A stretch of 37,312 bases of DNA. Origin: an uncultured Elusimicrobia bacterium. GTDB taxonomy: Bacteria; Elusimicrobiota; Endomicrobiia; Endomicrobiales; Endomicrobiaceae. The translations under genes were made by a program, and so were the position numbers. Positions 18,755 through 37,312 of the stretch are shown one piece after another (position 1 is the first letter of the stretch; the number at the start of each line of letters is the position of its first letter). The stretch lies in assembly GCA_947168325.1 (NCBI GenBank), contig CAMVLN010000003.1:1-37312 (forward strand), given 5' to 3'. The notes beneath the pieces are model-generated. The model was not told the origin of the DNA. It saw nothing but the letters and a program-made list of their open reading frames with translations, and did not search any database.

Positions 18755-18992
18755 TGGATTGCTTCGCTTTCGCTCGTAATGACGACAACGGCAAAAAAAA
18801 GGATGTTTATTGTTTGATAGATTCCCGCTCAACTGCTTTGCGGGAATGACAACAACAATGGATTGCTTCGCTTTCGCTCGCAATGACGACAACGGCAAAA
18901 AAAAGGATGTTTATTGTTTGATAGATTCCCGCTCAACTGCTTTGCGGGAATGACAACAACAATGGATTGCTTCGCTCTGCTCGCAATGACGG
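18755..18992. repeat. 104-bp direct tandem repeat (about 2.3 copies) of two small palindromic elements
   Basis: TGGATTGCTTCGCTTTCGCTCGYAATGAC starts at 18755, 18859, 18963; alternates with ATTCCCGCTCAACTGCTTTGCGGGAAT, whose 8-bp arms are perfect. A decayed half-copy (GATTCCCGATAGAGACTTTTGGCAATAAC) lies near 18685. Confidence 0.93.
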
Positions 18993-19068: not shown

Positions 19069-22000
19069 CTATGCTGCACTCAAAGTCGCTCTCATTCCTT
19101 TTAGTACATCCACTGTCATTTGTGACATCTTGTTTACTGGTTTTATATTATCTTCTAACAATACCTTTATATTTTCAAAATCACTTTCTGCTACACTACC
19201 AATAAATAACATATCTGTCTTGTTCCACTGCTGTGCAATCTCTTGTGATACCTTACCTTCCAAAACTTCTTTTACCATATCTGCCAGTGTTGTTGTTTTA
19301 ACTTTGCCTATTTCTACTTTTTGTATCGCTTCACTTATATCTTCTACACTATATCCGTTTACTAGTGCCCTTATTATCCTATACACTATTTGTTTCTTTA
19401 CCTCTATATTCATTGTTGCCATATCTACTGGTTCTTTATAAAATCTTCCTATATTCTTTTCTACATATGCTACTAAACTTCCTATCACATATTGCCTTAG
19501 TGCTACTACTTTATCTTCCCCTTCTATTCCTTTATCTTCCATTATTGCTCTTATCTTTAATTCAAACTCCGGTGTCAAAATCTTTTCTAGTTTCCCTATT
19601 TCATACTCTTCCTTAATTGTTTTTATGCTCATATTATTATCACTCAAAAGTCCTTTTAATGTGTTTACTACTTCTTCCGGTGATACTTCCCCTTTATAAC
19701 TTCCCTTTGAAAAGATTTCTTCATACCCTATTTCATATCCTTCACTAAAACTTATTGTCGCTATATCTTTCTTAAATAATTTTCCAAAACTATTTCCTAC
19801 TACTGCTTTCCCTACTGATATCATTGTCTTTGTAGCTTTTGCTCCTTTCCCAAATATCTTTTCTACTAGCTCTGTTACTTTCTTAAAATTATCTTCTTCA
19901 TCACTTTCTAAGTATAAGCTAATCCTCCCTTGTGTTGCTAACTCTTTTATCTGTTTAATCATTGCTTCGTTATCTTCTTTTATTTCTTTTGCTTCTACTA
20001 CAAATATTACTTTGTTTTTAAATTCACTATCTATTCTAGCTATGTTTCCTATATTGCTTTTCCCTATCTTATACGATATTTCTTTGCCACTTTCCTTTAT
20101 TAATTCTATTACTTTATAATCTATACCTTCTTCTAATAACCTAAAACCATTCACTTTTTTATTCCCTATATATCTTTTTATCTCTTCTTTTGTAGTATCT
20201 TTACTTATACCTATTACCGGATGTAATCCTGCTTCGCTTATCTCGTTTATCTGCCATTTTGTAAACTTATTTATATCGCCTTTTTTCAATACCACTTTGC
20301 TTACTCCGGCTCTTCTTAACAATTTACATTCTCTCTTTATATCTTTCTCTCTCATCCTTTCAAAAACAGCTAACTCGGCATCTTTTAACCCTACATTCGT
20401 ATTTGCTGTTACTACTTCTGCTAGCATATCTTCTATCTCTTCGTCTGTATATTTTAATGCTTTCAACTCTTCTTTATTCTTCCTTCTTATCTTTTTAAAT
20501 TCAAATTTATTTGCATCATATTCCCCACCTGAAATTTCTTTCAGATTCTCTCTTATTACTTCATCTATTTGCAACCTATCCATCAACAAACTTGTTAATA
20601 CCTTTAATATTTTCTCTTCTGTTTTTTCTTTCCATTCTTTCCTAACTATTTCTTCATATGTTTTTTTAGATGTACCTATGAACCTAAATGCTATCTCTTT
20701 TTTCTCAACATCGTACCATGCACTTGCTTTTATTTGAACCATTTTCCCTTTGCTATCTCTTATTGTATTCCCCTGTGCATCTTTTAATATCATAACAGGT
20801 ATTGGACATATCTTTTTATATCTTTGTTGACTTGGATATTCTTCTTTACTATATAAAGTTGTTGGAATATTTTTTTCGTATTTAGTATTTCGTACTTCTG
20901 CCCCTTTGATTTTATCCATTTCTTTTTCGTCCATTACTGTTCCTATTTTGCTCAAATCGCTTGTACATAACATTATAATTCGTCCATTTTCAACAGCATT
21001 GTCTTTTAAATATTTTATAAAATCTTCGCTTGTATATTTTTTGTTTCCTTCATTTTGATCGTACACAATATACTCATATACTTCAGGCATTTTTAAAATG
21101 CTTTTCTTTGGGTTCTTGTTTTTAGTGTTGTTGTATTCTTTTTTTATATATGCATTTTCTGCATAACCATACGAATTGCTGCCTTTTTTTCGTTTTTCTA
21201 TTGTTACAAAATGTGACTGATTTCGGTTTGCTAATACATTTTTTGGTAAATATAATATTGCTGTGTCAGCTTCTTTCATTTTTGTAATCATTTTGTCAAT
21301 ATTATTAGAATCAATTTTGTATACATTTACTTCTGCTTTATTTTTCTTTCTGTTTTTGTTAATTATATCTCTTATTACTTTCATACTTGTAAACTTAATA
21401 TCACTATCGTCTATTGACAATTGTTCTTTTTTGTTAAACACTCCTTTAGCTATCAATTTATACAATATCAGTAATGCAACTTCTTCAATTGTCTTATTTT
21501 GTATTACTTTTTTTATTGCATATGTTGCACAATTAATTATATCTTTTATATCATGTTGCTCTATAATAAAAAATTTATATAATATTTTTATTATTGAGTC
21601 TTTATCGCCACCACTACTTTCTATTGCTTTTGCTAAATGCTGCTTTGCAGATGAATCATATGGGCTTAATTCGGCTAATATTTGATCATACTTACTAGCA
21701 GCAATATTTTGACTATTTACCATATTTTGTTTGTAAATCGTGCCATATTTATCATTATTTACTAAATTTATTAAATTTAAATTATTATTTCCGATTGCTG
21801 CTTCTACCTTTATAAGATAAACAATAACGAAAAAGTTGTTAGAAAGTGGTCGGTTATGTTTATCTTTGATTTCGTATGAATGGACATCACTTGTTTTGTT
21901 ATAGTGAAAAGCTGGGTATTCGGAGTCAGAGTAGGAGTATCCTGCTGTAACAAGAATGTTTTTAATATCTTCTTGATATTTTTGTAATATCTTTTCAATT

Positions 22001-25000
22001 TTTGTAATATCTGTATCACCAACTTTTTTATCGTTATATTGTGATAATTCGGCCTGCACTTTATTAAACCTTTTTTTTAGTAATATTTGAAGACCAGTTA
22101 TTTTTTGTCTGTCACCTTGTCCCACATGAAAATAATGTTGTTTAACTTCATAACCAAATTTAAATTTTTCTTTATCAGTTTTGGGGGTGGTATAAACAGT
22201 CTCCCTCAGGTACTCAAACTTTTTTGTTTTTATGGGTTTAGTAATAAGCTTATATTTTGGTTTTAAGAATTTAATGCTGCCAAAAGAGGATATTCCATTA
22301 AGTTCTTTAAAGTCTTGGGGAATTTGTTTATCAAACAAATATTTGGCATAAGTATCTAAATCGTCTATTCGTAAAAACAAATAAGTTTTATTTTCTTCGT
22401 TAATAATACCACCAAAATTACTAATATCTTGTTTTATTTGTCCTTTTGTGTTTGATATGTCTTTCATTTTAAGATTGTTGTAGTTAGCGTTAAGATAATC
22501 TACTACTTCACTAAAAAATTGTTCTCTTTTGTCTATATCAAATGCAAATTCCATACTCCAAGAACCATTTGTGTTCGTAAAAGTAATGTTGCCGTATGTT
22601 ACTATAATAGGTTGTGTTCCATTTTTTAAAGTTATAAATATCTTCATATCAATATTGTTTTTATAATTACTAACCGATTTGTTATAACTAATAACCCATG
22701 CTTGATAGTGTGATTCATATTGTTTTAAAAAATCTTTTTGAAAATAGGTATCAAAAATTTTTTCGTTAAAAGTGTTCCCCATTTCTTTTGCAAGGTGGTC
22801 TTTTAAGTTGTTCAAAACTAAATTAGAACCATTATCTTCATTACCATTAAAGCCATATATTGATGTGAAAAGTGAAACGTCTACTGGATTTTTTCTCAGA
22901 TATTCATTAGCAAGGTCTGTCATTTTACCATAATTATAGGTTAACTTAAAAATATCTTCTCCGGTAATCTCTTTTTCGAATACTACATTGTTGGATTCTT
23001 TTTTTATTTCAAATACTATTTGAGGAACTTGAACTTGTAAGTTTTTATTATTAGGATTAGTATTAATAATATTAGTAATATTAGTAATATTAGTAATATA
23101 GTCTTCTAATAGCTGGTTCAATGTAGCAACAACTCCAGGATTATCGCTCAATAACAGAAGATTTTTATTATTTCCGAATTTTTTGTCGTATTCTTTATAT
23201 TTTTCTTCATATTTTTTAACAATATCTTCTTTATAGTTTCTAAATTGTTTTTCTAATGTTTGTTTTATTGTTTGTTCTGTGTAGCTTGTTCGTTTAATTT
23301 CTCTAACAAAATTGTTACATAGTGTTTTCATTTCCATATTTAACTCTGCTATGTTAAAACTTTCATAATAATTATCATTATCCGTAATAACAACTTCTTC
23401 TATTTTAGTTTCACAACCAACTTTATAATTAACTTTTTTTTCAACTTCTTTTTCAACTTCTTTTTCTTTATTTATGAACTTGAATTGTATTTTGTCATTT
23501 TCTTTAAGATCTTTTAGATTTAGTTCTTTCAACTTTTTTAACAATGCACTTACTATTATTTGTTCTATATCTTTGCTATTTTTTAATACAGATGAAAAAA
23601 CAAATTCTTGTAATATAACATTATAAGCTTCAGTGCTATCTTTTTCTTCTATTTTTTTCATTAACTTTTTGATTTCTTTTACTGTCTTTATGTTTCCTTT
23701 TGCAAAAGCTTTATTAACTTTGTCAAAAATACCATCGTCTATATGTTCTTCAAGTTGAATGTTTCTTATATAAGTTTGGCCATTGCTATATTGTAATTTC
23801 TGCGGCAACGGCATTTCTCCATTTGTAAATATTAAATAAAATCTAAACATTTTAATTTTATTCCAACTGTTTTCATTAAGTTTTTTGGATTTTACAGCTT
23901 TTTGAAAAGCAGAATTTTCTTGAAAATGTTTTTTATATTTGCCTTCACTAAGTATTAAATTGTTTTTATAATTTTTCAAAAGTTCTTGTTTTAAAATTTC
24001 AAATGATGAATCACTGAGTTGTTCTCGTGTCACACCATGCATATTATTATAAATGAATTCTTTAAAATCGTCCCCAAAAATAACCTCTTCTAAATATTTT
24101 CCAACATTGTTTCCACTATATTTTTTCTTATACTTGTTGTATACTTTTCCTTCTTTGTTTTTATGTATTGTTATAAAATGACCACTATCGTCTTTGTCTT
24201 TGTTCCAATTTTTGTCTTTTTCCCAACGATATTCCTGAAAATAACCATCTGTGAATAAGTTTCCGGTTCCGAAGCTTCCTTGCAACCAAAGATTAACAAG
24301 GGCTATCACTTTATCATCATAATTGTAGGTCAATTTAATTTCATCTATCCAACGCAAAGATATCTCTTCTGTTTGAGGTTGAGGTTGTGGTTCAGGTTTT
24401 GGTTTTTCTATAATAGGTTGTTGAGGATTTTTAAACAATAGTTTAATTCCTTTCAAATATTTTTTCCGGTGTTTGATTTTTTCTTCTATAGATAAGTCTT
24501 TAGTATCCATATACAATAAACCAAAACCTGCACAATATTCTTCTATTTCTTCACCTTTGTTGAAAGGATTTAGAATGTTTTCAATGTTTTTGTCAAATTC
24601 TTGTTTAAATGAAGCAACTTCTTTTTTATCATATTGTCTTTCTAAGTCGGAGAAAATTTTTTCTTTTTTGCTGCTGTTTTTTGCTAACATAAATTGATCT
24701 TGTTTCGAATCATATTCTATGTCAAAATAATTGGATTCTTTGTCATTCCAATCATTCCAATAGTTAACCAAGTTTTCATCAAAGACTTTTGTAAGTTTTT
24801 TTGTTTTTGTAGAGATAATACCTTTACCTATACAAGATATCTTATAAATGTCAATAGTTTTGTTTGCATTGTTCAACGACGAACTGTTCAAAGAATTGTT
24901 CAAACTGTTAGTAATTTCTGTAAAATTATTCTTTATTTTTTGTTTAATATCTTCAAGAGCTTTACTTTCGACAAAGTTGTTCCAACACTCTTTTATCCAG

Positions 25001-28000
25001 GCTTCTTTTGTCATCATATTTCCGGTCAACAAACCCGTAACCCAATAGTTAGCGAATTCTATTGGTATGTTTTTTTTCGATAATCTTCGTTCCAACTCTT
25101 GTTTTAGTTCTTTTTCAATATATTGTTCAAAATTTTGTTCAAAGTTGTTCAATAGTTCTGTTATCTTTTCTTTGTCTGATTTGTTTTTTTCCAACTCTTT
25201 AAGTAAATCTTTATATTTTTCTTCTATTATACTATTAAGTTCTTCAATGAAATACTTACTATGATATCCATTAATCTGTATTGTTTCATCAACAAGTTTA
25301 AACTCAAATTGTTGTTTTGGTATTTCTTGTTTCTCTGGTTCTGGTTCTTGCTGTTTTTCCTGTTTCTTCGGTTCACCATTTTTGATGTTTATTCTTATCT
25401 TTATATTTTCAAATTTTACATGTGTTAAGTTGCTTTTTTGTAATTTTGTGTTTATGGCAACTTCTTTTGTTTTAAATTGGTCTCGTGCTCCTTTTTCATA
25501 AAAATTTTTCAATGGTTCTGTAACTGAATATTTACTATAAAAACCGTCTATTTTTTGGTTTGTTAACTCTTTTTCAACTGATTTATAAAAATCTGATAAT
25601 TTACTTGCTTCAACTGATTTTGAAAAAAATAGTTTTTTAATTTGCTCAAATGCTTTGCCTTTAACATGTCTTTCAAGTTGAAGGTCCATGTCCACTGTAA
25701 TAACAGGTTTTATAACAAATTTTATTTTAGGTAAAGACAAGTGTTTAATAGTATTACCTTTTTCACTTCCTTCACTTTTTGTTATTGTATATTGATAATA
25801 TTGAAAATTTTTAAACACTTTTAGTTCTTTTTCAACATTTGTGACGATTTCTTGTTTTATTTCTTTGCTTATTTGTAAATTTGAACACATATCTATCATT
25901 TCTTTTTCATATTTTTTGATACTGTTTTTTTCTAATAACGTAAAATCATCCAAATTATAACTTTCCAATTTTTGTTGTTTTGTGAAATCACTGTAATATT
26001 GTTCTATTTTTGAATTAACATTTTCAATAACATTTGTAATATTATTAATATATTGTTCTGTAAAGTTTTCTTCTAAAGATATAGGAAGGGAAACTGTTTT
26101 TACTTTTTGTCCAAATTCTAGTTTGAAGTTTGGTTTTTTTTCTTGTACTTCTGGTACTTTTAATTCTTCTGGTCCTTCTTGTCCATTTTCAAAAGATATC
26201 TTCACAACAACATTATTTTCATCAACAGACGAATCGTTTCCGGCGCGTAACGAATCATATTTGTTTTTTACATCTTTTTCTAAAAAATCAATAAAATCTT
26301 TAAGGTCTACTTTATCTACTTTTTTTATTATCAATTGTTCAATAGACTCTTCGTTGCTTATGTTGCTTTCGCTTTCTTCGCTTTCTTCGCTTTCTCCGCT
26401 TTTTTCGCTTTCTCCGCTTTTTTCGCTTTCTCCGCTTTTTTCTTTTTTGGATTTTTGTAGTTGGTTTAGTTGGTCTATTAGTTGGTCTCTTAGTTGTTCT
26501 ATTTGAATATATAATATATCTGTGTTTTTAAACTTTTTATTTAATTCTGATATAAATTTGTCACCATATTTTTGTTTAAAAGGATACTTCAAACTAATTT
26601 CTTTATTTTCTCCATTTTCAACTTGGAGATAACATAGTTCTTCTTTGTTTACTTCGTATTCTTTCATCGATTTTAAAGCTTTTTCTAAATCTTTTTCAAG
26701 GAGGTCTTCGTTGTATTTTTCGCCTTTTAAATATTTTTTTAGTTTTTCGAAGAGGTTTTTTTCTTCTTCTTCTTGTCCTTTTAATAACAACTCCATTTTA
26801 TTTTCTTCAAAATATTTATTAACATTGTCTATAAGTTTGTCCGGATATTTATGGTTAAGTTTTGTTGGAAAAGGTTTTAAAATCATAGAACTTAAATCAT
26901 CTATTATTCTTTTCAAATATTCCAATCTTATTCTTGCTAGAAATCTTTGTTCGGTTTGGTTAACACCAGCATAAATATTGTCTTTATTATTTTTAGCCAT
27001 CATGTCTTGATTAATCTGAGTAAGAACTTGTGTATGTGCTCTTTTTATAAGGTTAAATAACTCCATTAATTTAGCTTCGTTAAATATTTTCATTAAATCT
27101 ACTATTGTATAGTCTTTTTGCAAAAAATGTTCAAAAAGGGTTAACAATATATATGTATAATTTGCACCTTTCTCTTTATCGAGAGGGTAATGAGAGTCAA
27201 GTAGAGCTTTACTAAAGTTTTTGTTATTTAGAGACAGAATGTTATTTATAAAGTAATCTTGTATCTTGCTTATTATATTACCTTCTTTCTCTTTATCTTT
27301 TTTGTTAAATTCTTGTTCAATAAAATTTTCTAAAAATTTAAAATCACCGTTATATTTTTTCAAATCTTGTGCACGAAAAGATTGTTTTAATAATGCTTTT
27401 CTATCTTTTATAAACAGTGCTATGTCTTTTTTGTCAATGTTCAGATTTGTTAATTCGTCTTCTAATTTTTTCAACTCTTCTTCTATCTTTATTTTCATAG
27501 TAAGAAACAGAATAAGTCTGTTTCTTCTTCTATGTAGCTTCTCTTTATCGGTTTCATTAGTTTTGTCTATTTCGTCTAACATGTAAATAACAAGATCTTG
27601 TTCACCTATTAAACCTTCGTCATACATCTCATATTTGTTTTTTCTTTTGTTTTTAAACATTTGTGAATATTGACTATAAGCAGACTTCATAGCATCAACG
27701 GTATAAGATTGAGTTCCTATAGTTGTGTCAAGTTTTTTATTTTTAAATTGGCTGGTAAGAAGTTCATTATAGCTGGCCGTTGTGATTTTTTGTTCTTGTT
27801 TTATTTTTTCTATTCTATATTCAATAGCTTTTTTTATTTTATCTTTATCTTTATCTTTATTAACTACATTAATCTTTTTAAAAAAACTATTAATATCTTT
27901 TATATCGTTTTCTTTTTCATTAAAAAATTTATCAATTTTAAGTATATTCTCATATTCTTTATATTTAGTTTCATCTTGTTCATTTTCTTGTTTATTTTTT

Positions 28001-31000
28001 TGTTCATCTTTTTTATCTTTTTCAGTTTTATCTTTTTTATCTTGTTCATCTTTTTTAATTTTGTCATAAGCTTCTCTTGTACGTTGCACCAATATTGCAT
28101 TTGCTTTATTCTTGTATTGTTTATTATTACTTTTTGCTATTACTGTAGTCATTACTTCAATCATTTTCATCGTATTGTTCGTATCTAGTGATTCTAGTAA
28201 TGAAGATTGGCTTAAATCAGTAGGACCACTACCTAGTAATCCTTTCATGTCGTCTTCTGATAATCTTTCAATATTATTATTATATTTACCCTTATTTTCT
28301 TTAATCAATACTTCTATAGGAAAACCACCACCTTTTTCATTTTCTTCTACTGAAGCTTTTTCACTTTCTTCTACTGAATCTTTTTCACTTTCTTTTACTG
28401 AATCTTTTTCATTTTCTTCTACTGAATCTTTTTCTTTTTCTTCTACTGAAGCTTTTTCACTTTCTTCTATTAAATTTTGTTCATTGTCTCCCATTAAATA
28501 TCCTACTAACTCTGTTTCTGTTTTCTTTAATTCTCCTTGTGAATCAACAACAACATATTTGTCTTCGTCGTCGTCGTTTTCTTTTTCTAATTTTTTTATT
28601 GTTACAAAATGCCCTCTGTTCAATCTCACAATTATTTCATCTTTTTCTATTAAATTAATAAGAGTTTTAAAGTTTTTTATGCGATAGCCATGGTATATTT
28701 TGTTTGAATTGTTGTCCTTCAAATTTTTGTTCAAATATTCTTTAATTGCGAACATACTAGAAAGCAAGTTTTTGTTTAATAAAAATTTATCTTGATTTGC
28801 TTTTTTACTAAATACCCCTGTAGCTATATCTTTCAAAAACATTGTTAAAGATATTTGATAAAGCTCTTTACTTCCTTTAACAACATTATTCACTACTTTA
28901 GTTGCACAATTAATTACATCATTGCCATTATTAATAATTTCATCAATATATATATTCAAAAAGGCTATTGTTTTTATTTTTTGTTTTCTTACTTCTTCTT
29001 CTATATCTTTTTTATTTTTAAAGGCTTCGTCGCTTGTTATTTTCGTTCTTAAATATTTTTCTAATTCTCTTAATGCTTCATCTACATCGTTTTCTATTTG
29101 TTTATTGGTTTTGCTATTTTGTTTGTTACTATTTTGTTTGTTACTATTTTGTTTGTTAAAAAATTTTACTATTTTTTCTTTTAAATCTTTATCGTTACCC
29201 AAACATTCCAAAAAATCTTTTAAAATCAAATCACTATTTTGTTCTATTAAAACTTTAAGTTCTTGAAATCGTTCATCTGTCATTACTTGTAGCCATTCAT
29301 AGATACTGGTTTTGCTTTCAATAGTACTGTCTTTGTTTTCAAGCCAATCTAAAAACCAATCCCAAAATAATTTTCCTGGTCGTATTTCAGTTTTAAGAAT
29401 ATAAGCAAAAAGTATATCAAATATAAACAGTAACAACATTATTGGAGAAGCAAGAAATAATAGTAACACTTTACCATAAAAAACACCAACATCTGAACCA
29501 CTAATTTTACCTCCTTTATTTGATGCCCTAAAAACATTCATTCCTGTCATATTTGCTAAAGCAGTTGCCATAATAAATATATTCGAAACAAAAAAGCCAA
29601 CTACAGCAAGTACAATTTCAGTTGTTGACCATGATGATGCTAACTTCCATAAAATAATCACAAATATAACAACAGCAGTAGCTACACCTAGGAAAATCCG
29701 GAAACCAAACTTAATCGTTTTTTTATAATCCTCATTCATTTCATCAACAGATTTAGTTGTACGCTCCAACCCTTTTGTAGTAGGTGTAAAATTAAATTTT
29801 TGTTGTAAACCTTGGTCAAAACCCTGATATATGGTTCCAGACATACTAGAAAAATAAGGTAAAAATTTAAATATATTAACAAAGAATGTGAAAAAGCCAC
29901 TAACCCCATCAGACAAGGAAGAATTATAAGGTAATGAACTAAAAGAACTACTTTGCATTAACATAATCATAAGAATAACAACAAATAAAATTGGTATAAA
30001 TGCAAATGTATAAGATGTAAATAAAGTAAGAATTGGAAAAAATAACAATATAAACCTTGCAAAAGGAATATTCAAATAATGTTGCCACATCATTGAATTA
30101 ATAACTTTTACATCATAACCAAGTGAACTATCTGCAAAATTAGCATCCCTTGCTGTTCCCTCTATATAATATAACAAAACATTCCACAAATACCGTTGCT
30201 CTGTTGGTGCTGAATATGAGGCCGGTCTTTGCCATAACAGTGTTCTGTATGTTGTAGTAACAGATTTTCTATCTATTTTATCAGAGTCTTTTTTTGCTCC
30301 TTTATACCTTCTTACTAAATTAGATAAGCTTCTGTACATAATAAAGGAATAAGAATCTTCACCTGTATGAACTATTCCCATTACAAGATAATAGTACCCT
30401 GTCCCTTTTCCATAGAAAGTTAAAAAAATAGAAAAACCTCTTTGTGTAACATTTATCCAAGCCTCTTGGGATGAACCGTAAGCATAAGCTGAATAATTTC
30501 CAGGCTCCGCACCAGGAACAAGCATTGGCGGATTTAAAACCGCAACACCGTTTTCTATGAGAGCTATCACAAAATGAGATGCCATAGTTCCATCAAAAAT
30601 CTCCTGACCATACAATAAACTATTTAATGCATCGTGCAAAAACATAACACAACCTACAAATTCTGCCATATTATATACAAGGTTAACATTCTTACCAGAT
30701 GGCGTCCATACTTGATCTCGTTTTAGCTTCCATGGAAAATAAATGCCTATTCTTATTAGATCGTTTGTTTGTTTCATCATCCTAATAAAACCAAATTTCC
30801 CTTCCCAATATAAAGGGTCTATGTGATTTGTTTGAACAAAGTATATAAATTCAGTTGCATGTTCTTCTCTAAAATCACATATTTCTTTTGCATATTGAGC
30901 TAAAGTTTTTCCTTGACAGTCTTGTATTTTGGCAAGGAATTCTTTGGCGAATTTTTTACTTCGATTATCACCGTTTTGACAAGCAGCCTGTAAATCCTTT

Positions 31001-34000
31001 ATAATTCCTTTTTTTGTTACTTCATCTGCTAATTCAACTATTCTCCCATTTGTACCAAGTTTAATATGGTCTGGCATTATTCCTTCAAATAATATAAACG
31101 AATGTTTTTCTTTTACTCTGTTATTTATGCTTTCGTATTTTTTTAAGAAATTTAGAACATGTTTAATTGCATCTTTATTTACAATATATTTGTTGTTTTC
31201 ATCTGTTTCAACAAATAAACCAGAAGAAAACAACTTATCAATAAATAAAACATCTTCTTTGCTTATTTTGCCTGATTCTCTTTGTTTTATTATTGCATTT
31301 ACTTTGCTTTGTATTTGATTAATGACATTATCAGCCTGAGCATTACCATAATCATTTACACCACAGTCTTCTAAAATATCTTTGTACTCTTCATATGCAA
31401 TTTTAACTGCCTCATAATGTTTGCCTACAAAATCTAATGCATCCAAATATTCATATTCACAATATGTTTTAGCATAAGAAACATGATATTGAAATATCTC
31501 CACTGCCATACCACGGACAACTTGGCTATCATTAGATCTTATTTCATTAATTAATTTGTTTATCTCGCTGATAACATATTTATAAAATAGTTTATTTCCA
31601 ACTTCAGTTTCCAATACAGGGAATTTATATGTATCCAAACTTTCTGTGTTTAATAAAGTATTTACAGACTCTTCCATTTTTTCAAAATCTTTTTTTATTG
31701 CTTCATAAGTTTTTTTACCATAATACAATGGTAAAATTTTATTTTTAACTCTTTCTATATTTTCTTTAGCATCTTTTAAAACATTTTCCCAAGCAGTTTT
31801 TCTTTCTCTAGCTATACGCCCCATAACAGTTGTACCTAAATCACTAGAAGACTTTTTAGAAGATAACTCAGACCCTGTTTCAAATGTTTCCCCTGCACCT
31901 GCCATAATATTAGTAACTGTTCTTGGGTTCCCATCCCAACCAAAACCCTGTGGTTTTTTAGCCGCAAAAGTCTCTATTGTTTTTATAATATATTTCCTTG
32001 CAACATAATTTTCTACCCACGGGATTTCTCCTTCACCTGTTTTGATATATATAAGAAAACCTTCTCGTTCTTCTTCAGTCATATCTTTGCAATTTTTAAT
32101 AAATCTTATCATTTCATCTTTCCAACTTCTACCATCAGGAAGGAAACTACCATTTTTTTCAACTTCATCAAATTCGTCAAATCTCGCCTTAATGGCTTTA
32201 GGCCAACCTTTCTTATCATACGATGTTTTAAAAAACCATATTCCCAGTGCTTTTAAACCAAGTATCAAACCAATTGTTGCTCCTAAAAATATCAAAAATA
32301 GAATCACTCCTTTCCAAAATGCAGCTATATTTATATTTAAAATATTATGCATTGAAGTAAAAGGAAAAGATATTGTAGCAAGTATAGCCAACAAAATAAC
32401 CGTAAATTGTACCATATCAAAAACAGCTTTCCTTGTAGCCATTCCTGATGGAGCATCTGCTATTATTCTATGTTGTGCAAGAAATGCACCACCAATGTTC
32501 CAAATAGCTTGAAAAGAAATAGGAGCACTCACAATTAATATAAGAACCGTGACAAAAAGCTTTATAAAATCTAGCCAAAGCCATTTTGAAAAAATTAATG
32601 ATTGTAAAAAAGAACCTCCAATAACTCCACCAAAAAAAATTGAGAAAATAACAACTATTATACACATATACACTTTTGAGAAAGTTTTTGAACTTTTTCC
32701 TGCCACATATTTAGGAAGAAGCCATGCTAATACAAAAAATGTCATCATAATATATAAGAATAACGTTTTTGAAGCGGTGCTCAGTGTATACAAAAAACCA
32801 AAATTACCAAAAGCTAAAAAACCACAAAAACCAGAAAGGAGCAATAGTAGAACACGGAGAGTCCAAAGTATAACCTTTTGCCCTCCTGTTCTAATATTAA
32901 AGTAGGTAGAACCGCCAAAAAGAACTTTTAATGTCTTACTTGTTACTAAATTCCAAGTTATACGAAGTTTGCTAAACCAACCTTGTGCTTGTACATACTC
33001 ACCCTTAACTCTGTCGGTATTAAAATTTGACTGGGTACCAAGATAGTTTCTAAGGCTATCACGATATCTATATTCAAAAGCTTTTAGCTTTTGAACATAT
33101 TCTTCGTTTTGTTTTTTCAGAACAGAATCTTTTTCTCCTTTTTCTCCTTTTTCTCCTTTATTATAATCATAAATATTAGTTCCCACATTTCTGCCAACAG
33201 CTTTACTGTATAAATCATAATAGTTTCTTAAATATTGTTTAAAAATGTCTTTATCTTCTGGACTAAGAGTTTTCTTATCACTGTCACTTCTTCCGTATTT
33301 ACGAGTCCACCACTTAATTTTTGCTTTATCTACTTTGCTATTAAGTTTACTAAAACCTTTATATTTAAGTATACATAATTTCATAGCTGCACTTTCTCTG
33401 TCTGTAACACCACCATCCAGTTTTTTATATATACTATAATAGTCTGGAAAGTCTTTGTTCATATTTGAAATTTGTTTTTTATAATAAGATCCATAAACCT
33501 TATTATTTTCATCAATGATAAAATTTTCTTCTAAAAGTTTACTAAACTTTTCTTTTAAATCACCAAAAATTGTTTCAAACTCTTTTGCTTTTTCTACAAG
33601 TTCTCTAAATTTTTTGTTTACAAAAACATCATTGTTATTCTTCTTAAAGTAATCTTTTTTATCACTACTAAATTCATACTCTCTAATCAAAATAAGTGCA
33701 ATTTCATAAACTTCATAATCATTTTCTAATTCTTTTATGTCTTTAACATACTTAAAATTTTGTTCATTAGTTTTTCCTCTAAGGTAGTTAACTATTTTTA
33801 TCCAAGTGTCGCTATTGCTTCCTTTGAAATTCTTTACTTGTTCAATAATTTTTTCTTTTTCTTGTTGTATGTTTGTTTTGTCATCAGTTAAAATATATCC
33901 TTCAATGGCATCCTGCAACATAAACCTATTAGTATCTGCTCTTAAAGCAGCACTTATATCCATAGCAAACTTTAAATTATTTTTGGCATTTTTTATGCTT

Positions 34001-37000
34001 TTATCGTTATATTTGTCTGCAAATATAATAGATAATATTCCAATAACATCAATAAACTTCTCGCTATTTCTTTCTACATCAATATTATTGAAATTAACTT
34101 TTTCACTACTGTTATTGTCTCCATTATTGTTTATCATGAGACTTTGAAAAATTTCAGCATTAATAATGTTAGAAGTGCCCAAAATATCATTGTTACTTTT
34201 TTCATTTTTAGAAATAAGAGAGCTTTCTTTTATAAGAGAGCTTTCTTTTATAAGAGAGCTGTCTTTTTTACGATTATTGTTATTTTGTTTATCTTTATCT
34301 CTAATATAGTCTCTAATTTTTTTATATGTTTCTGGCATATACATTGCAAAATCGCCTACTTTTATGTTAAAAAGATCTACTTTTCTTATTGCTAAATCAG
34401 TAAATAATCTCTCTGCTGCTCCTTCAAAAAAGACATCGTCAATAGACATTGCCATCTGTGTTTCTTTTTTTCTGCCTTTAACCTCCTGCATATAAAAATC
34501 AATAGACTTTGAAATAATTCTAAAGAAATTTATCGCATTAATAATTTTTGTTTGTACATCTTGTTTTATTTCATTATAGCTTGTTCCATTGTTTTTGAGT
34601 TCTTCTGCACTATCTAAAATCCTCCTTATAAAGTAATATGTAGGAGTTAATAAACTACTATATTCACCAAAAGATAAAGCCTCTTTAGATTTGTCTTTTG
34701 TTTTGTCGTCAAAGTCAGCAAAACCACCAAGCAGAGTTTTTGTCATTTTAAAATCTTTATCGTTAGACATAGCTGACATAGCTATAACACTAGGATTCTG
34801 AGCCAAAATCTTAAATAATATGAATTCTTTTATATTTTGAAAATCCATAGTTTCAAGTCCCCGGTCTTGAAAAGAATAATCAAGGTTGTCAAAATCATCT
34901 TTTTTTAATAAAGAATCTTCGTTATAATCTTCTTCTTTATTGATTTTATTTTTTTTGCTTTTTGTTCTTATTACAATTGGAGCCATTACAAAAGAACTCC
35001 AAAATTGTTCAAGTGCTTGTTGTTTAATTTCGTTAGTAATACTAATACCGTCTGCCTTAATATGTCTTTTGCCAATTATATTTGAATAACTTTCTGGGAG
35101 AATGTTCTCTATTTCTGTACACTGTGGCTTAACTATTTTCTTCCATGAAATATATTTTCCAAAAACACTTAAACTATCATTTCTTATTTCGTTACTTCCT
35201 TGAATATATTGTGTATCTTCATTTGCTGCTTGGACATATCCAAAAAATTCTTGTGCATATATCTTTAATTCTTGAATTGTGACAATTTTGTTGTTAACCA
35301 ATGCTTTTAAAGCTGTGGCTGCTTCCGTTGGTAATAATTTGTTTAATGCTTCTTTTATATCATCATCACTAGCATTGTTATCTGTTATTTTATTAAGAAA
35401 ATTTTTTTCAACTTCTATTTTTATTGAATTCATTATCTGTTCAAGTTGTATCCCGTTCGGGGCTTTTATTCCTTCTTTCTCTTTTTTGCTTTTGTTATTT
35501 TCCTCATCCTCATTTTTGCTTTTGTTATTTTCCTCATCCTCATTTTTGCTTTTGTTATTTTCCTCATCCTCATTTTTGCTTTTGTTATTTTCCTCATCCT
35601 CATTTTTGCTTTTGTTATTTTCCTCATCCTCATTTTTGCTTTTGTTATTTTCCTCATTTTTTTTAATAATCTCTAGTATCTTTCTTGGTTCAAGAATACC
35701 GTTTTTTATAATATACTCAATACCAATAACAAATCTATTCTTATCGTTAATTGATGTCTTTACTACTGTATCATTTATATTGTCTTTTAATTTATAAGAT
35801 TTTATGTCGGCTCCTTTTTTAATAAAATTGTCAATGGATTCTTTTACATATTTAAGTTGAGGTGCTCCTTCTTTTTTTATCTCACTTATATCAACATTTT
35901 TATTAATGCCTACATGACCTTCTTTTATATTCTTTACATATTTTTCTAACCTTTCTTCATACTCATCATTAGTTTCCTCATTTTCTTTTTTTGTAAAATA
36001 AAGTTTTAATTGTGCTACAAGCTGACTTTCTGATAGCTTTGTGTTGATATATTTACCATAAAACCTTTGCATAACAACAAATTCTTCTAATTCCTTTTGT
36101 TCTTCATCAGATAGCTTTCCTATAAGCTCATTCTTATTTTTTTTCTTTATAATTTTCCCAAGCCATAGAAAAAATATAGGTATTGTGACAACAAGAATAA
36201 CACTAATGATTAAGACAATAAGATACATTGTTGCATAATCTTGTGAAAACTCATCTTGAATTGCTTTTCGTATATTTAAGATAGTTATCTCTTTACCCTC
36301 ATAGTATATTTTTATACTCTTACCTTTATATTTAAACTCAAAAAACATACGACCGTCATTGTCTTTTTTATATTCTATATCCGTTAAATATTTATCATAT
36401 TCTGATAAATTTTCTATACTTTTTGCTAAGTTTTTTAAATTTTTAGAATTACTATTAGCATCAAATATGTATATTGTTATAGATACCCCTTTGTATTTTA
36501 CTTCTATGTATTCATATCCGTTCTCATCTTTTTTTATATCTCGCCATGTATATTTGTTGTCATCACCATCTTTAAAAGCTTCATTTATGTCCTCAATTAC
36601 TTCATACTTTTTTTTCACATCTGCTACAGTTATTGCTGTTTTATTAAAATATATTGTCTCTTCTATTGTCTCTTCTTTATATTTATAATTAAATTTAAAC
36701 ACACCATACCCTTCATTTGTTGTAGTATATTCTAAGTTTGTTATATCTTCATCCTCAGACAAATTGTTAATGCTTGTCAACAAGTTTTCCAAAACTTTTA
36801 TATCATTTAATGTCCCAACTTTATTATATAAATAATGATTAAAAGTTACATTTTTATATTTTATTGTTATAAATTGTGCACCGTTTTTATCTGTTTGTAT
36901 AGCGCTTTGTGTATACTCCTTATCACCAATGGTATCATCTAGTAGTTTTAATATTTTTGCTATTTCTTTATAATCCTTAAAACGACTATTTAAAGTACCA

Positions 37001-37312
37001 TCTTTATTATATAAATAATGTTCAAAAATCTTTCCATCTATTTTTATTTCTATATATGGAATATATTTCCCATCCATTTTTTTCAACTTAACTTCTGATA
37101 CTTCAGCATCCTTATACTTTTCTTTAATACTTTCTATAAATTCGTTTAATCCGTTTATTTCTTCTTTTATATCATCTGCTGTTATTACTTCGTTATTAAA
37201 AGGTATTGTCCTTTCTTTACCTTTATAATAAAATTTAAACACAACATATCCTTCATCTGTTGTAGTATATTCTAAGTTTGTTATATCTTCATCCTCAGAC
37301 AAATTGTTAATG
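19069..37312 (-). CDS. Giant multidomain membrane protein (more than 6080 aa, N-terminus beyond right edge): beta-repeats, TM, glycosyltransferase-like core, two C39-like peptidase modules, C-terminal alpha/beta domain
   Basis: Uninterrupted frame from the window edge to TAG at 19069. The tracked start at 37302 is a TTG inside a repeat with open in-frame codons ATT AAC AAT upstream, so it is not a supported start. Confidence 0.93.
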   Translation of the reverse strand, partial: INNLSEDEDITNLEYTTTDEGYVVFKFYYKGKERTIPFNNEVITADDIKEEINGLNEFIESIKEKYKDAEVSEVKLKKMDGKYIPYIEIKIDGKIFEHYLYNKDGTLNSRFKDYKEIAKILKLLDDTIGDKEYTQSAIQTDKNGAQFITIKYKNVTFNHYLYNKVGTLNDIKVLENLLTSINNLSEDEDITNLEYTTTNEGYGVFKFNYKYKEETIEETIYFNKTAITVADVKKKYEVIEDINEAFKDGDDNKYTWRDIKKDENGYEYIEVKYKGVSITIYIFDANSNSKNLKNLAKSIENLSEYDKYLTDIEYKKDNDGRMFFEFKYKGKSIKIYYEGKEITILNIRKAIQDEFSQDYATMYLIVLIISVILVVTIPIFFLWLGKIIKKKNKNELIGKLSDEEQKELEEFVVMQRFYGKYINTKLSESQLVAQLKLYFTKKENEETNDEYEERLEKYVKNIKEGHVGINKNVDISEIKKEGAPQLKYVKESIDNFIKKGADIKSYKLKDNINDTVVKTSINDKNRFVIGIEYIIKNGILEPRKILEIIKKNEENNKSKNEDEENNKSKNEDEENNKSKNEDEENNKSKNEDEENNKSKNEDEENNKSKKEKEGIKAPNGIQLEQIMNSIKIEVEKNFLNKITDNNASDDDIKEALNKLLPTEAATALKALVNNKIVTIQELKIYAQEFFGYVQAANEDTQYIQGSNEIRNDSLSVFGKYISWKKIVKPQCTEIENILPESYSNIIGKRHIKADGISITNEIKQQALEQFWSSFVMAPIVIRTKSKKNKINKEEDYNEDSLLKKDDFDNLDYSFQDRGLETMDFQNIKEFILFKILAQNPSVIAMSAMSNDKDFKMTKTLLGGFADFDDKTKDKSKEALSFGEYSSLLTPTYYFIRRILDSAEELKNNGTSYNEIKQDVQTKIINAINFFRIISKSIDFYMQEVKGRKKETQMAMSIDDVFFEGAAERLFTDLAIRKVDLFNIKVGDFAMYMPETYKKIRDYIRDKDKQNNNNRKKDSSLIKESSLIKESSLISKNEKSNNDILGTSNIINAEIFQSLMINNNGDNNSSEKVNFNNIDVERNSEKFIDVIGILSIIFADKYNDKSIKNAKNNLKFAMDISAALRADTNRFMLQDAIEGYILTDDKTNIQQEKEKIIEQVKNFKGSNSDTWIKIVNYLRGKTNEQNFKYVKDIKELENDYEVYEIALILIREYEFSSDKKDYFKKNNNDVFVNKKFRELVEKAKEFETIFGDLKEKFSKLLEENFIIDENNKVYGSYYKKQISNMNKDFPDYYSIYKKLDGGVTDRESAAMKLCILKYKGFSKLNSKVDKAKIKWWTRKYGRSDSDKKTLSPEDKDIFKQYLRNYYDLYSKAVGRNVGTNIYDYNKGEKGEKGEKDSVLKKQNEEYVQKLKAFEYRYRDSLRNYLGTQSNFNTDRVKGEYVQAQGWFSKLRITWNLVTSKTLKVLFGGSTYFNIRTGGQKVILWTLRVLLLLLSGFCGFLAFGNFGFLYTLSTASKTLFLYIMMTFFVLAWLLPKYVAGKSSKTFSKVYMCIIVVIFSIFFGGVIGGSFLQSLIFSKWLWLDFIKLFVTVLILIVSAPISFQAIWNIGGAFLAQHRIIADAPSGMATRKAVFDMVQFTVILLAILATISFPFTSMHNILNINIAAFWKGVILFLIFLGATIGLILGLKALGIWFFKTSYDKKGWPKAIKARFDEFDEVEKNGSFLPDGRSWKDEMIRFIKNCKDMTEEEREGFLIYIKTGEGEIPWVENYVARKYIIKTIETFAAKKPQGFGWDGNPRTVTNIMAGAGETFETGSELSSKKSSSDLGTTVMGRIARERKTAWENVLKDAKENIERVKNKILPLYYGKKTYEAIKKDFEKMEESVNTLLNTESLDTYKFPVLETEVGNKLFYKYVISEINKLINEIRSNDSQVVRGMAVEIFQYHVSYAKTYCEYEYLDALDFVGKHYEAVKIAYEEYKDILEDCGVNDYGNAQADNVINQIQSKVNAIIKQRESGKISKEDVLFIDKLFSSGLFVETDENNKYIVNKDAIKHVLNFLKKYESINNRVKEKHSFILFEGIMPDHIKLGTNGRIVELADEVTKKGIIKDLQAACQNGDNRSKKFAKEFLAKIQDCQGKTLAQYAKEICDFREEHATEFIYFVQTNHIDPLYWEGKFGFIRMMKQTNDLIRIGIYFPWKLKRDQVWTPSGKNVNLVYNMAEFVGCVMFLHDALNSLLYGQEIFDGTMASHFVIALIENGVAVLNPPMLVPGAEPGNYSAYAYGSSQEAWINVTQRGFSIFLTFYGKGTGYYYLVMGIVHTGEDSYSFIMYRSLSNLVRRYKGAKKDSDKIDRKSVTTTYRTLLWQRPASYSAPTEQRYLWNVLLYYIEGTARDANFADSSLGYDVKVINSMMWQHYLNIPFARFILLFFPILTLFTSYTFAFIPILFVVILMIMLMQSSSFSSLPYNSSLSDGVSGFFTFFVNIFKFLPYFSSMSGTIYQGFDQGLQQKFNFTPTTKGLERTTKSVDEMNEDYKKTIKFGFRIFLGVATAVVIFVIILWKLASSWSTTEIVLAVVGFFVSNIFIMATALANMTGMNVFRASNKGGKISGSDVGVFYGKVLLLFLASPIMLLLFIFDILFAYILKTEIRPGKLFWDWFLDWLENKDSTIESKTSIYEWLQVMTDERFQELKVLIEQNSDLILKDFLECLGNDKDLKEKIVKFFNKQNSNKQNSNKQNSKTNKQIENDVDEALRELEKYLRTKITSDEAFKNKKDIEEEVRKQKIKTIAFLNIYIDEIINNGNDVINCATKVVNNVVKGSKELYQISLTMFLKDIATGVFSKKANQDKFLLNKNLLSSMFAIKEYLNKNLKDNNSNKIYHGYRIKNFKTLINLIEKDEIIVRLNRGHFVTIKKLEKENDDDEDKYVVVDSQGELKKTETELVGYLMGDNEQNLIEESEKASVEEKEKDSVEENEKDSVKESEKDSVEESEKASVEENEKGGGFPIEVLIKENKGKYNNNIERLSEDDMKGLLGSGPTDLSQSSLLESLDTNNTMKMIEVMTTVIAKSNNKQYKNKANAILVQRTREAYDKIKKDEQDKKDKTEKDKKDEQKNKQENEQDETKYKEYENILKIDKFFNEKENDIKDINSFFKKINVVNKDKDKDKIKKAIEYRIEKIKQEQKITTASYNELLTSQFKNKKLDTTIGTQSYTVDAMKSAYSQYSQMFKNKRKNKYEMYDEGLIGEQDLVIYMLDEIDKTNETDKEKLHRRRNRLILFLTMKIKIEEELKKLEDELTNLNIDKKDIALFIKDRKALLKQSFRAQDLKKYNGDFKFLENFIEQEFNKKDKEKEGNIISKIQDYFINNILSLNNKNFSKALLDSHYPLDKEKGANYTYILLTLFEHFLQKDYTIVDLMKIFNEAKLMELFNLIKRAHTQVLTQINQDMMAKNNKDNIYAGVNQTEQRFLARIRLEYLKRIIDDLSSMILKPFPTKLNHKYPDKLIDNVNKYFEENKMELLLKGQEEEEKNLFEKLKKYLKGEKYNEDLLEKDLEKALKSMKEYEVNKEELCYLQVENGENKEISLKYPFKQKYGDKFISELNKKFKNTDILYIQIEQLRDQLIDQLNQLQKSKKEKSGESEKSGESEKSGESEESEESESNISNEESIEQLIIKKVDKVDLKDFIDFLEKDVKNKYDSLRAGNDSSVDENNVVVKISFENGQEGPEELKVPEVQEKKPNFKLEFGQKVKTVSLPISLEENFTEQYINNITNVIENVNSKIEQYYSDFTKQQKLESYNLDDFTLLEKNSIKKYEKEMIDMCSNLQISKEIKQEIVTNVEKELKVFKNFQYYQYTITKSEGSEKGNTIKHLSLPKIKFVIKPVITVDMDLQLERHVKGKAFEQIKKLFFSKSVEASKLSDFYKSVEKELTNQKIDGFYSKYSVTEPLKNFYEKGARDQFKTKEVAINTKLQKSNLTHVKFENIKIRINIKNGEPKKQEKQQEPEPEKQEIPKQQFEFKLVDETIQINGYHSKYFIEELNSIIEEKYKDLLKELEKNKSDKEKITELLNNFEQNFEQYIEKELKQELERRLSKKNIPIEFANYWVTGLLTGNMMTKEAWIKECWNNFVESKALEDIKQKIKNNFTEITNSLNNSLNSSSLNNANKTIDIYKISCIGKGIISTKTKKLTKVFDENLVNYWNDWNDKESNYFDIEYDSKQDQFMLAKNSSKKEKIFSDLERQYDKKEVASFKQEFDKNIENILNPFNKGEEIEEYCAGFGLLYMDTKDLSIEEKIKHRKKYLKGIKLLFKNPQQPIIEKPKPEPQPQPQTEEISLRWIDEIKLTYNYDDKVIALVNLWLQGSFGTGNLFTDGYFQEYRWEKDKNWNKDKDDSGHFITIHKNKEGKVYNKYKKKYSGNNVGKYLEEVIFGDDFKEFIYNNMHGVTREQLSDSSFEILKQELLKNYKNNLILSEGKYKKHFQENSAFQKAVKSKKLNENSWNKIKMFRFYLIFTNGEMPLPQKLQYSNGQTYIRNIQLEEHIDDGIFDKVNKAFAKGNIKTVKEIKKLMKKIEEKDSTEAYNVILQEFVFSSVLKNSKDIEQIIVSALLKKLKELNLKDLKENDKIQFKFINKEKEVEKEVEKKVNYKVGCETKIEEVVITDNDNYYESFNIAELNMEMKTLCNNFVREIKRTSYTEQTIKQTLEKQFRNYKEDIVKKYEEKYKEYDKKFGNNKNLLLLSDNPGVVATLNQLLEDYITNITNITNIINTNPNNKNLQVQVPQIVFEIKKESNNVVFEKEITGEDIFKLTYNYGKMTDLANEYLRKNPVDVSLFTSIYGFNGNEDNGSNLVLNNLKDHLAKEMGNTFNEKIFDTYFQKDFLKQYESHYQAWVISYNKSVSNYKNNIDMKIFITLKNGTQPIIVTYGNITFTNTNGSWSMEFAFDIDKREQFFSEVVDYLNANYNNLKMKDISNTKGQIKQDISNFGGIINEENKTYLFLRIDDLDTYAKYLFDKQIPQDFKELNGISSFGSIKFLKPKYKLITKPIKTKKFEYLRETVYTTPKTDKEKFKFGYEVKQHYFHVGQGDRQKITGLQILLKKRFNKVQAELSQYNDKKVGDTDITKIEKILQKYQEDIKNILVTAGYSYSDSEYPAFHYNKTSDVHSYEIKDKHNRPLSNNFFVIVYLIKVEAAIGNNNLNLINLVNNDKYGTIYKQNMVNSQNIAASKYDQILAELSPYDSSAKQHLAKAIESSGGDKDSIIKILYKFFIIEQHDIKDIINCATYAIKKVIQNKTIEEVALLILYKLIAKGVFNKKEQLSIDDSDIKFTSMKVIRDIINKNRKKNKAEVNVYKIDSNNIDKMITKMKEADTAILYLPKNVLANRNQSHFVTIEKRKKGSNSYGYAENAYIKKEYNNTKNKNPKKSILKMPEVYEYIVYDQNEGNKKYTSEDFIKYLKDNAVENGRIIMLCTSDLSKIGTVMDEKEMDKIKGAEVRNTKYEKNIPTTLYSKEEYPSQQRYKKICPIPVMILKDAQGNTIRDSKGKMVQIKASAWYDVEKKEIAFRFIGTSKKTYEEIVRKEWKEKTEEKILKVLTSLLMDRLQIDEVIRENLKEISGGEYDANKFEFKKIRRKNKEELKALKYTDEEIEDMLAEVVTANTNVGLKDAELAVFERMREKDIKRECKLLRRAGVSKVVLKKGDINKFTKWQINEISEAGLHPVIGISKDTTKEEIKRYIGNKKVNGFRLLEEGIDYKVIELIKESGKEISYKIGKSNIGNIARIDSEFKNKVIFVVEAKEIKEDNEAMIKQIKELATQGRISLYLESDEEDNFKKVTELVEKIFGKGAKATKTMISVGKAVVGNSFGKLFKKDIATISFSEGYEIGYEEIFSKGSYKGEVSPEEVVNTLKGLLSDNNMSIKTIKEEYEIGKLEKILTPEFELKIRAIMEDKGIEGEDKVVALRQYVIGSLVAYVEKNIGRFYKEPVDMATMNIEVKKQIVYRIIRALVNGYSVEDISEAIQKVEIGKVKTTTLADMVKEVLEGKVSQEIAQQWNKTDMLFIGSVAESDFENIKVLLEDNIKPVNKMSQMTVDVLKGMRATLSAA
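21030..21580 (-). other. C39/papain-like cysteine peptidase-like module 2
   Basis: DIINCATYAIKKV (Cys codon 21529-21531), NRNQSHFVTIEKR, YIVYDQNEGNKKYTSEDFIKYL: same order as module 1. Confidence 0.6.
26365..26445 (-). repeat. 18-bp-type tandem repeat coding SGESEK
   Basis: Protein KSGESEKSGESEKSGESEESEESES. Confidence 0.9.
28340..28480 (-). repeat. 24-bp imperfect tandem repeat coding ESEKASVE/ENEKDSVE
   Basis: Protein EESEKASVEEKEKDSVEENEKDSVKESEKDSVEESEKASVEENEKGGG. Confidence 0.9.
28520..28990 (-). other. C39/papain-like cysteine peptidase-like module 1
   Basis: DVINCATKVVNNVV (Cys codon 28906-28908), RLNRGHFVTIKK, KYVVVDSQGEL: Cys-His-Asp order. Confidence 0.6.
29111..29157 (-). repeat. 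15-bp tandem repeat coding NKQNS
   Basis: actattttgtttgtt repeated; protein NKQNSNKQNSNKQNS. Confidence 0.9.
29400..30090 (-). other. TM cluster B of the giant protein (about five helices)
   Basis: FARFILLFFPILTLFTSYTFAFIPILFVVILMIMLM, FGFRIFLGVATAVVIFVIILWKLA, TEIVLAVVGFFVSNIFIMATALA, VFYGKVLLLFLASPIMLLLFIFDILFAYI. Confidence 0.8.
30181..30842 (-). other. Glycosyltransferase-like (GT2/GT84-like) motif block in the giant protein
   Basis: Ordered motifs FVQTNHIDPLYWEGKFG, RGFSIFLTFYGKGTGYYYLVMG, HTGEDSYSFIMYRSL, PTEQRYLWN, placed between two TM clusters. Confidence 0.5.
32200..32880 (-). other. TM cluster A of the giant protein (about six helices)
   Basis: VILWTLRVLLLLLSGFCGFLAFG, TLFLYIMMTFFVLAWLLPKYV, VYMCIIVVIFSIFFGGVIGG, FIKLFVTVLILIVSAPISF, VQFTVILLAILATISFPF, FWKGVILFLIFLGATIGLILGL. 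Confidence 0.8.
34214..34266 (-). repeat. 18-bp tandem repeat coding SSLIKE
   Basis: ataagagagctttctttt at 34214, 34232, 34250; protein SSLIKESSLIKESSLI. Confidence 0.9.
35484..35660 (-). repeat. 30-bp tandem repeat, six copies, coding EDEENNKSKN
   Basis: tttgttattttcctcatcctcatttttgct repeats from 35491, 35521, 35551, 35581, 35611, 35641. Confidence 0.97.
36250..37312 (-). repeat. N-terminal beta-rich repeats of the giant protein (about six units visible)
   Basis: Units such as ITNLEYTTTDEGYVVFKFYYKGKERTI / YTQSAIQTDKNGAQFITIKYKNVTFNHYLYN / ITNLEYTTTNEGYGVFKFNYKYKEETI / YTWRDIKKDENGYEYIEVKYKGVSITIYIFD / LTDIEYKKDNDGRMFFEFKYKGKSIKIYY. DNA of two units is nearly identical at 540-bp spacing (36691-36772 vs 37231-37312). 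Confidence 0.85.

Follow-up and report, generated by a model that had tools for sequence, protein, structure and literature searches.

A giant open reading frame (ORF) from an uncultured rumen bacterium of the family Endomicrobiaceae contains two modules that are likely, on the evidence of sequence profiles and structural models, to be C39-type cysteine peptidases of the papain fold that carry their substrate in cis and cut their own chain downstream. A predicted double-glycine-type leader signal stands approximately 60-90 residues behind each peptidase core on the same chain, and the protein would be cut directly behind this signal. The stretch of DNA analyzed here (the window) is one whole contig (C3; 37,312 bases), and the genome to which it belongs measures 1.5 Mb. 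The giant ORF fills its right half (bp 19069-37311, minus strand); 6,080 codons lie within the window, and the 5' end of the ORF, with the N-terminus of the protein, is lost at the contig end. Judging by those relatives that carry names, it belongs to the Elusimicrobiota, family Endomicrobiaceae, close to rumen MAGs such as Ca. Ruminimicrobiellum bubulum and caprinum.

As present in the window, the ORF begins with 349 aa (bp 36265-37311, minus strand) that are internally repetitive (aa 1-234 versus aa 181-349, E-value: 3e-23). Further along, a hydrophobic part with approximately 12 membrane segments predicted by hydropathy scan (bp 29413-32874, minus strand, aa 1480-2633) adjoins module 1 on its N-terminal side. 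The middle part (bp 21601-28227, minus strand, aa 3029-5237) is rich in Lys, Glu and Asn and matches no known domain. The C-terminal part (bp 19072-20898, minus strand; 609 aa, 70 kDa) is without any known family and recurs in the genus at the C-termini of further large ORFs, in G009 and G001 as well as on contigs C31 and C40 of the window genome. Relatives of the hydrophobic part were found in G001, G004, G030 and G037. Two of these (on G001:C9 and G004:C105), as well as the C-terminal-part relative in G009, lie in ORFs for which the DNA examined showed no module, so the C39 module can be absent from the corresponding places. Two large ORFs that share parts with the window ORF (L110 on G009:C212 and L111 on G004:C105) contain, by eye, apparent protein-kinase-like stretches (for example, YNYDLNPQSIMIDKDLNIKLIDCDG; KFAIKIYEKEKL...EIQILKKLKHKNIVKLIE). 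A 104-bp tandem repeat of 2.3 copies (bp 18755-18991) with TTGCTTCGCTTTCGCTCGCAATGACG lies immediately downstream of this ORF, in a region that has no long ORF. No relatives were found in viral contigs, plasmids or phages.

Module 1 (bp 28537-28953, minus strand, aa 2787-2925) and module 2 (bp 21037-21600, minus strand, aa 5238-5425) share one minus-strand open frame. Each contains Cys, His and Asp in the order found in C39 peptidases: Cys2802 (bp 28906-28908), His2901 (bp 28609-28611) and Asp2923 (bp 28543-28545) in module 1, and Cys5261 (bp 21529-21531), His5367 (bp 21211-21213) and Asp5418 (bp 21058-21060) in module 2, which has an insert of approximately 35 residues between the His and the Asp. 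The two Cys codons are separated by 7,377 nt (2,459 aa). The modules are 32% identical over 126 aa (BLASTP E-value: 8e-10), a likeness that is not due to chance given these values. The original prediction of two homologous modules with all three residues kept, approximately 7.4 kb apart in one gene, is thus borne out, as is its observation of near-identical DNA around the Cys and His codons: 16 identical bases are found at the Cys (gttgcacaattaatta) and 14 at the His (attgttacaaaatg). Because overall identity is only approximately 30%, these matches reflect codon conservation and not recent copying. Catalytic activity of both modules is plausible, as predicted from the kept triad.

Two other parts of the original prediction require modification. 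The modules were described as duplicated, and their homology stands; an origin by duplication within the gene is no more than possible. In a phylogenetic tree modules 1 and 2 join with support of 83/42, a grouping flagged as possible long-branch attraction; each sits on a very long branch and has at most 30-31% identity to any relative, and the two are not clearly closer to one another than either is to modules from different proteins. A recent duplication inside the giant gene was considered and is unsupported, with long branches in the tree. The modules were also said to bracket the whole repeat region, which is not supported, as BLAST detects no repeats in the region between them and the strong repeats of the ORF sit at its start (aa 1-349), apart from the modules. 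Between the modules, only one weak internal repeat was recorded (aa 3875-4073 versus aa 4516-4705, E-value: 9e-4).

A first search with module 1 as the query identified relatives in 16 of 61 related genomes. An alignment of 20 modules was then used as a profile (A1), which gave matches in 35 of the 342 Elusimicrobiota genomes searched, all of the same class, with up to eight matches per genome. In the DNA examined, 58 distinct modules were collected, some of them partial or degenerate. The open frames that carry them are mostly very large and reach 12,189 aa. In A1, the N-C-A motif, a Phe, a Ser, the His and the Gly of a motif downstream of the peptidase are invariant. Many of the related ORFs have a signal-peptide-like sequence at their start, such as VSILVVLCFVLNIANLPVYA, and carry the module at approximately residue 260-400 of the frame, unlike the window ORF, in which one module lies mid-chain and the other near the end. 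Two modules per ORF are also found in G002, G010, G026 and G036, and more than two in G030 and G333. In the window genome, a second copy of the module together with the C-terminal part, on C40 (L081), has a frame that is broken downstream of the module, with pieces in different frames and TAG stops; from its sequence, this copy may be decaying. The longest ORF (L082:7904-19999:+ in G038; 12,189 aa) has two different self-processing domains in succession, as a Hint (intein-like) domain (PF05203, E-value: 5e-10) starts directly behind the GA of its module. It also has an extra C39 domain that lacks the Cys, near frame residue 320 (PF03412, E-value: 2.6e-14).

The C39 identity of the modules emerged only from the family alignment; a search of the whole giant ORF against Pfam and NCBIfam showed nothing relevant. 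Neither window module alone reached any Pfam or NCBIfam model, and a PDB sequence-profile search gave chance matches only. PF03412 (Peptidase_C39) matches 15 of the 20 aligned family modules, three of them over the curated cut-off (best E-value: 3.5e-7), and the window modules are counted as members because they are homologous to the modules that match. In the searched part of the window genome, PF03412 matches only two further modules of the same family (on C40 and C11), and PF13529 (C39_2) has no match. Structural modelling agrees with this assignment. The AlphaFold model of a relative, L032, whose alignment input included both window modules, has a pLDDT of 92.9 and a pTM of 0.88. The best match to this model in the PDB is the LahT C39 peptidase (6mpz), a double-glycine protease from a PCAT exporter that was crystallized together with its leader peptide; PCAT1 peptidase domains follow, and 7n87 is among the best matches (probability 0.98-1.00, E-value approximately 0.01). 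For module 2 of the window the model is moderate (pTM 0.74), with structural matches to papain-like folds only. The oxyanion-hole position, approximately 7 residues before the Cys, is Q or N in most modules and Asp in module 2, such that the C39 Gln is not strictly conserved, and some family modules lack the Cys or the His. Based on the profile matches and these models, membership of the window modules in a family of C39-type peptidases is well supported, in agreement with the "C39-like" label given to them originally.

Behind the peptidase, most family members contain the motif L/I-S-x-E-E-M-x-x-I-x-G-A (LSxEEMxxIxG[A/S/G]). According to a review of leader-removing proteases (PMC10885120), C39 enzymes cleave behind GG, GA or GS, with recognition of hydrophobic residues at positions -4, -7 and -12, and the family motif obeys this rule when counted from its final Ala, Ser or Gly. 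The predicted signal of module 1, LSEDDMKGLLGS (bp 28228-28263, minus strand, aa 3017-3028), would be cut after Ser3028, and that of module 2, MDEKEMDKIKGA (bp 20899-20934, minus strand, aa 5460-5471), after Ala5471. The functional units therefore extend beyond the modules as originally delimited, to approximately bp 28228 for module 1 and bp 20899 for module 2. The signals survive in spite of a 24-bp tandem repeat (6.3 copies; bp 28332-28483, minus strand) that encodes the acidic linker leading from module 1 to its signal, and of the approximately 35-residue insert in module 2. Within the soluble part of this protein, sites that obey the rule are found only behind the two modules and at one other place (aa 5585).

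The association between modules and signals was counted using the published rule alone, in the stretch 15-130 aa behind each module. A signal is present behind 29 of 43 modules with intact Cys and His, compared to 69 of 709 control stretches taken from the same ORFs (9.7%; p=9e-20), and behind only one of nine modules lacking the Cys or the His (Fisher p=0.003, versus the intact modules); both p-values are optimistic and overstate independence, because the sequences tested are related. By these counts, the signal and the triad tend to be lost together. One module, L075, keeps the Cys and the signal but lacks the His. The 14 intact modules scored as misses include near-forms of the signal (LSKEDMQSTTGA, LSTEQTKSIRGA, LDSAETDAITGS) and a sub-family of genus g8 in which LxKVLGA is kept while the hydrophobic residue at -12 is lost. 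A stricter pattern occurs 3.0 times per 1,000 aa behind modules versus 0.034 times elsewhere, a descriptive comparison, as the pattern was picked after the sequences had been inspected. One signal stretch matches the lantibiotic-precursor families PF04604 (E-value: 0.022) and PF16934 (E-value: 0.23), both weakly and below the cut-off. Cut signals found in the genus by DNA pattern at places without a module are mostly one recurring sequence, GAAGAAATGCTTGAAATGGCAGGTTC, which looks like a shared gene. The two other pattern matches in the window genome lie in beta-helix-like repeat proteins and appear to be due to chance. This genome encodes long beta-helix-like proteins with SSNTA..GGAIYN repeats (L092 on C12 and L093 on C89), which are probably further surface proteins.

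In the L032 model, the signal belongs to the folded domain. Confidence stays at 91-97 along the signal as far as the GA and falls to approximately 60 directly after it, and a beta bridge is formed at the two residues preceding the final Ala. We tentatively read this model as placing the signal in the active site. From the sequences and the models, we infer the following course of events. Once the module has folded, the GA or GS segment that follows would bend back to enter the active site, with cleavage of the chain behind the signal. In the window protein, cuts after Ser3028 and Ala5471 would produce an N-terminal membrane piece of at least 350 kDa, a 288-kDa middle piece ending with module 2 and the 70-kDa C-terminal piece, and the cut would release an exported N-terminal region from its giant passenger. 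Because relatives have a signal-peptide-like N-terminus ahead of the module, cleavage would probably take place during or after export, outside the cytoplasm. An exporter of the C39 type (PF03412 in an ABC exporter) was not found in the searched part of the host genome, and such an exporter acting in trans is thus unlikely to be needed. That cleavage takes place, that it acts in cis, when it happens and what it does for the cell are all predictions from sequences and modelled structures.

The modules could instead be non-catalytic holders, with the C39 fold clamping the LSxEEMxxIxGA helix structurally, as in the C39-like domain of RTX exporters, and never cutting it. The absence of the Cys or the His from some modules would fit such a role, as would the position of the signal within the folded domain of the L032 model. 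However, most modules keep both residues, including the fast-evolving window pair, and those that do not are mostly without the signal as well, whereas for clamping alone the signal would be required but the Cys would not. We therefore regard a holder as unlikely, although it is the strongest of the competing explanations.

The original prediction had left open whether the modules cut or cross-link the protein. Cutting is favored by the C39-type signal shortly behind each module; cross-linking found no supporting evidence. A transpeptidase, in which the acyl-enzyme formed at the GA reacts with an amine on a different protein, to which the N-terminal part thereby becomes covalently attached, would use the same active-site chemistry and would suit large proteins that are probably located at the cell surface, judging by their signal-peptide-like N-termini; but the sequences indicate no acceptor and the nearest solved relatives are hydrolases, and we consider this quite improbable. 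Least probable is an effector role, with the modules acting as C39-type toxin domains on outside targets, as proposed for Tox-PLC39 of the polymorphic toxins (PMC3482391). The size of the proteins and the Hint domain directly behind the module in L082 are reminiscent of such systems, yet the modules are internal or near the N-terminus rather than C-terminal, and a leader signal behind a toxin domain would serve no need.

Self-cleavage in cis, the reading that we prefer, has its closest known parallel in the C39 domains of PCAT/AMS exporters (LahT, PCAT1 and ComA; PF03412, MEROPS C39), which share with the modules the profile match, the Cys/His/Asp triad, the papain-like fold and a cut signal with hydrophobic -4, -7 and -12 residues followed by GG, GA or GS. 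Unlike in these exporters, the modules have no attached ABC transporter (no ABC domain was found in the searched parts of the giant ORFs), the signal stands behind the enzyme on the same chain, the passenger is a giant protein and not a short peptide, relatives have a signal-peptide-like N-terminus and the oxyanion Gln is not strictly kept. The polymorphic toxins likewise have autoprocessing papain-like, caspase-like and HINT domains embedded as peptidases inside very large secreted proteins, where they are thought to free parts of the chain (PMC3482391), and L082 pairs the module with a Hint domain. In the passages of that article consulted, the papain-like clades in question are named Tox-PL1/OTU, C39 counts among the toxin domains and no leader signal in cis is described; no toxin domain was found by Pfam in the searched parts of the giant ORFs. 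The giant ORFs of Omnitrophota (PMC10066038) are similar in their great length, small genomes, few known domains and many membrane helices, but belong to another phylum, and the text of that article mentions no peptidase.

A literature search, which left most subscription journals outside its scope, found no paper on a C39 peptidase with a double-glycine site in cis or on giant proteins of Endomicrobia. Within this scope, no earlier description was found of giant proteins in which C39 peptidases that lack an exporter are paired, on one chain, with a leader-like site for cutting. The giant proteins of uncultured bacteria are nearly unannotated, and how such chains mature is an open question. 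Here the enzyme, the target bond and the products are all predicted from sequence, which makes the proposal testable with a 250-residue construct, and the module with its signal might be used as a self-cleaving tag. If self-cleavage is correct, it would provide a rule for dividing giant ORFs into mature parts, for both annotation and structure prediction. It would also mean that a C39 peptidase can work without an exporter, with the enzyme and its leader on one chain. More tentatively, and with a little less confidence than doubt, we suggest that the Endomicrobiia of the Elusimicrobiota export giant polyproteins and that several C39 peptidases contained in these chains split them, each at its own leader-like signal, such that the peptidase and leader of bacteriocin export may have been turned into a cis-acting splitter.
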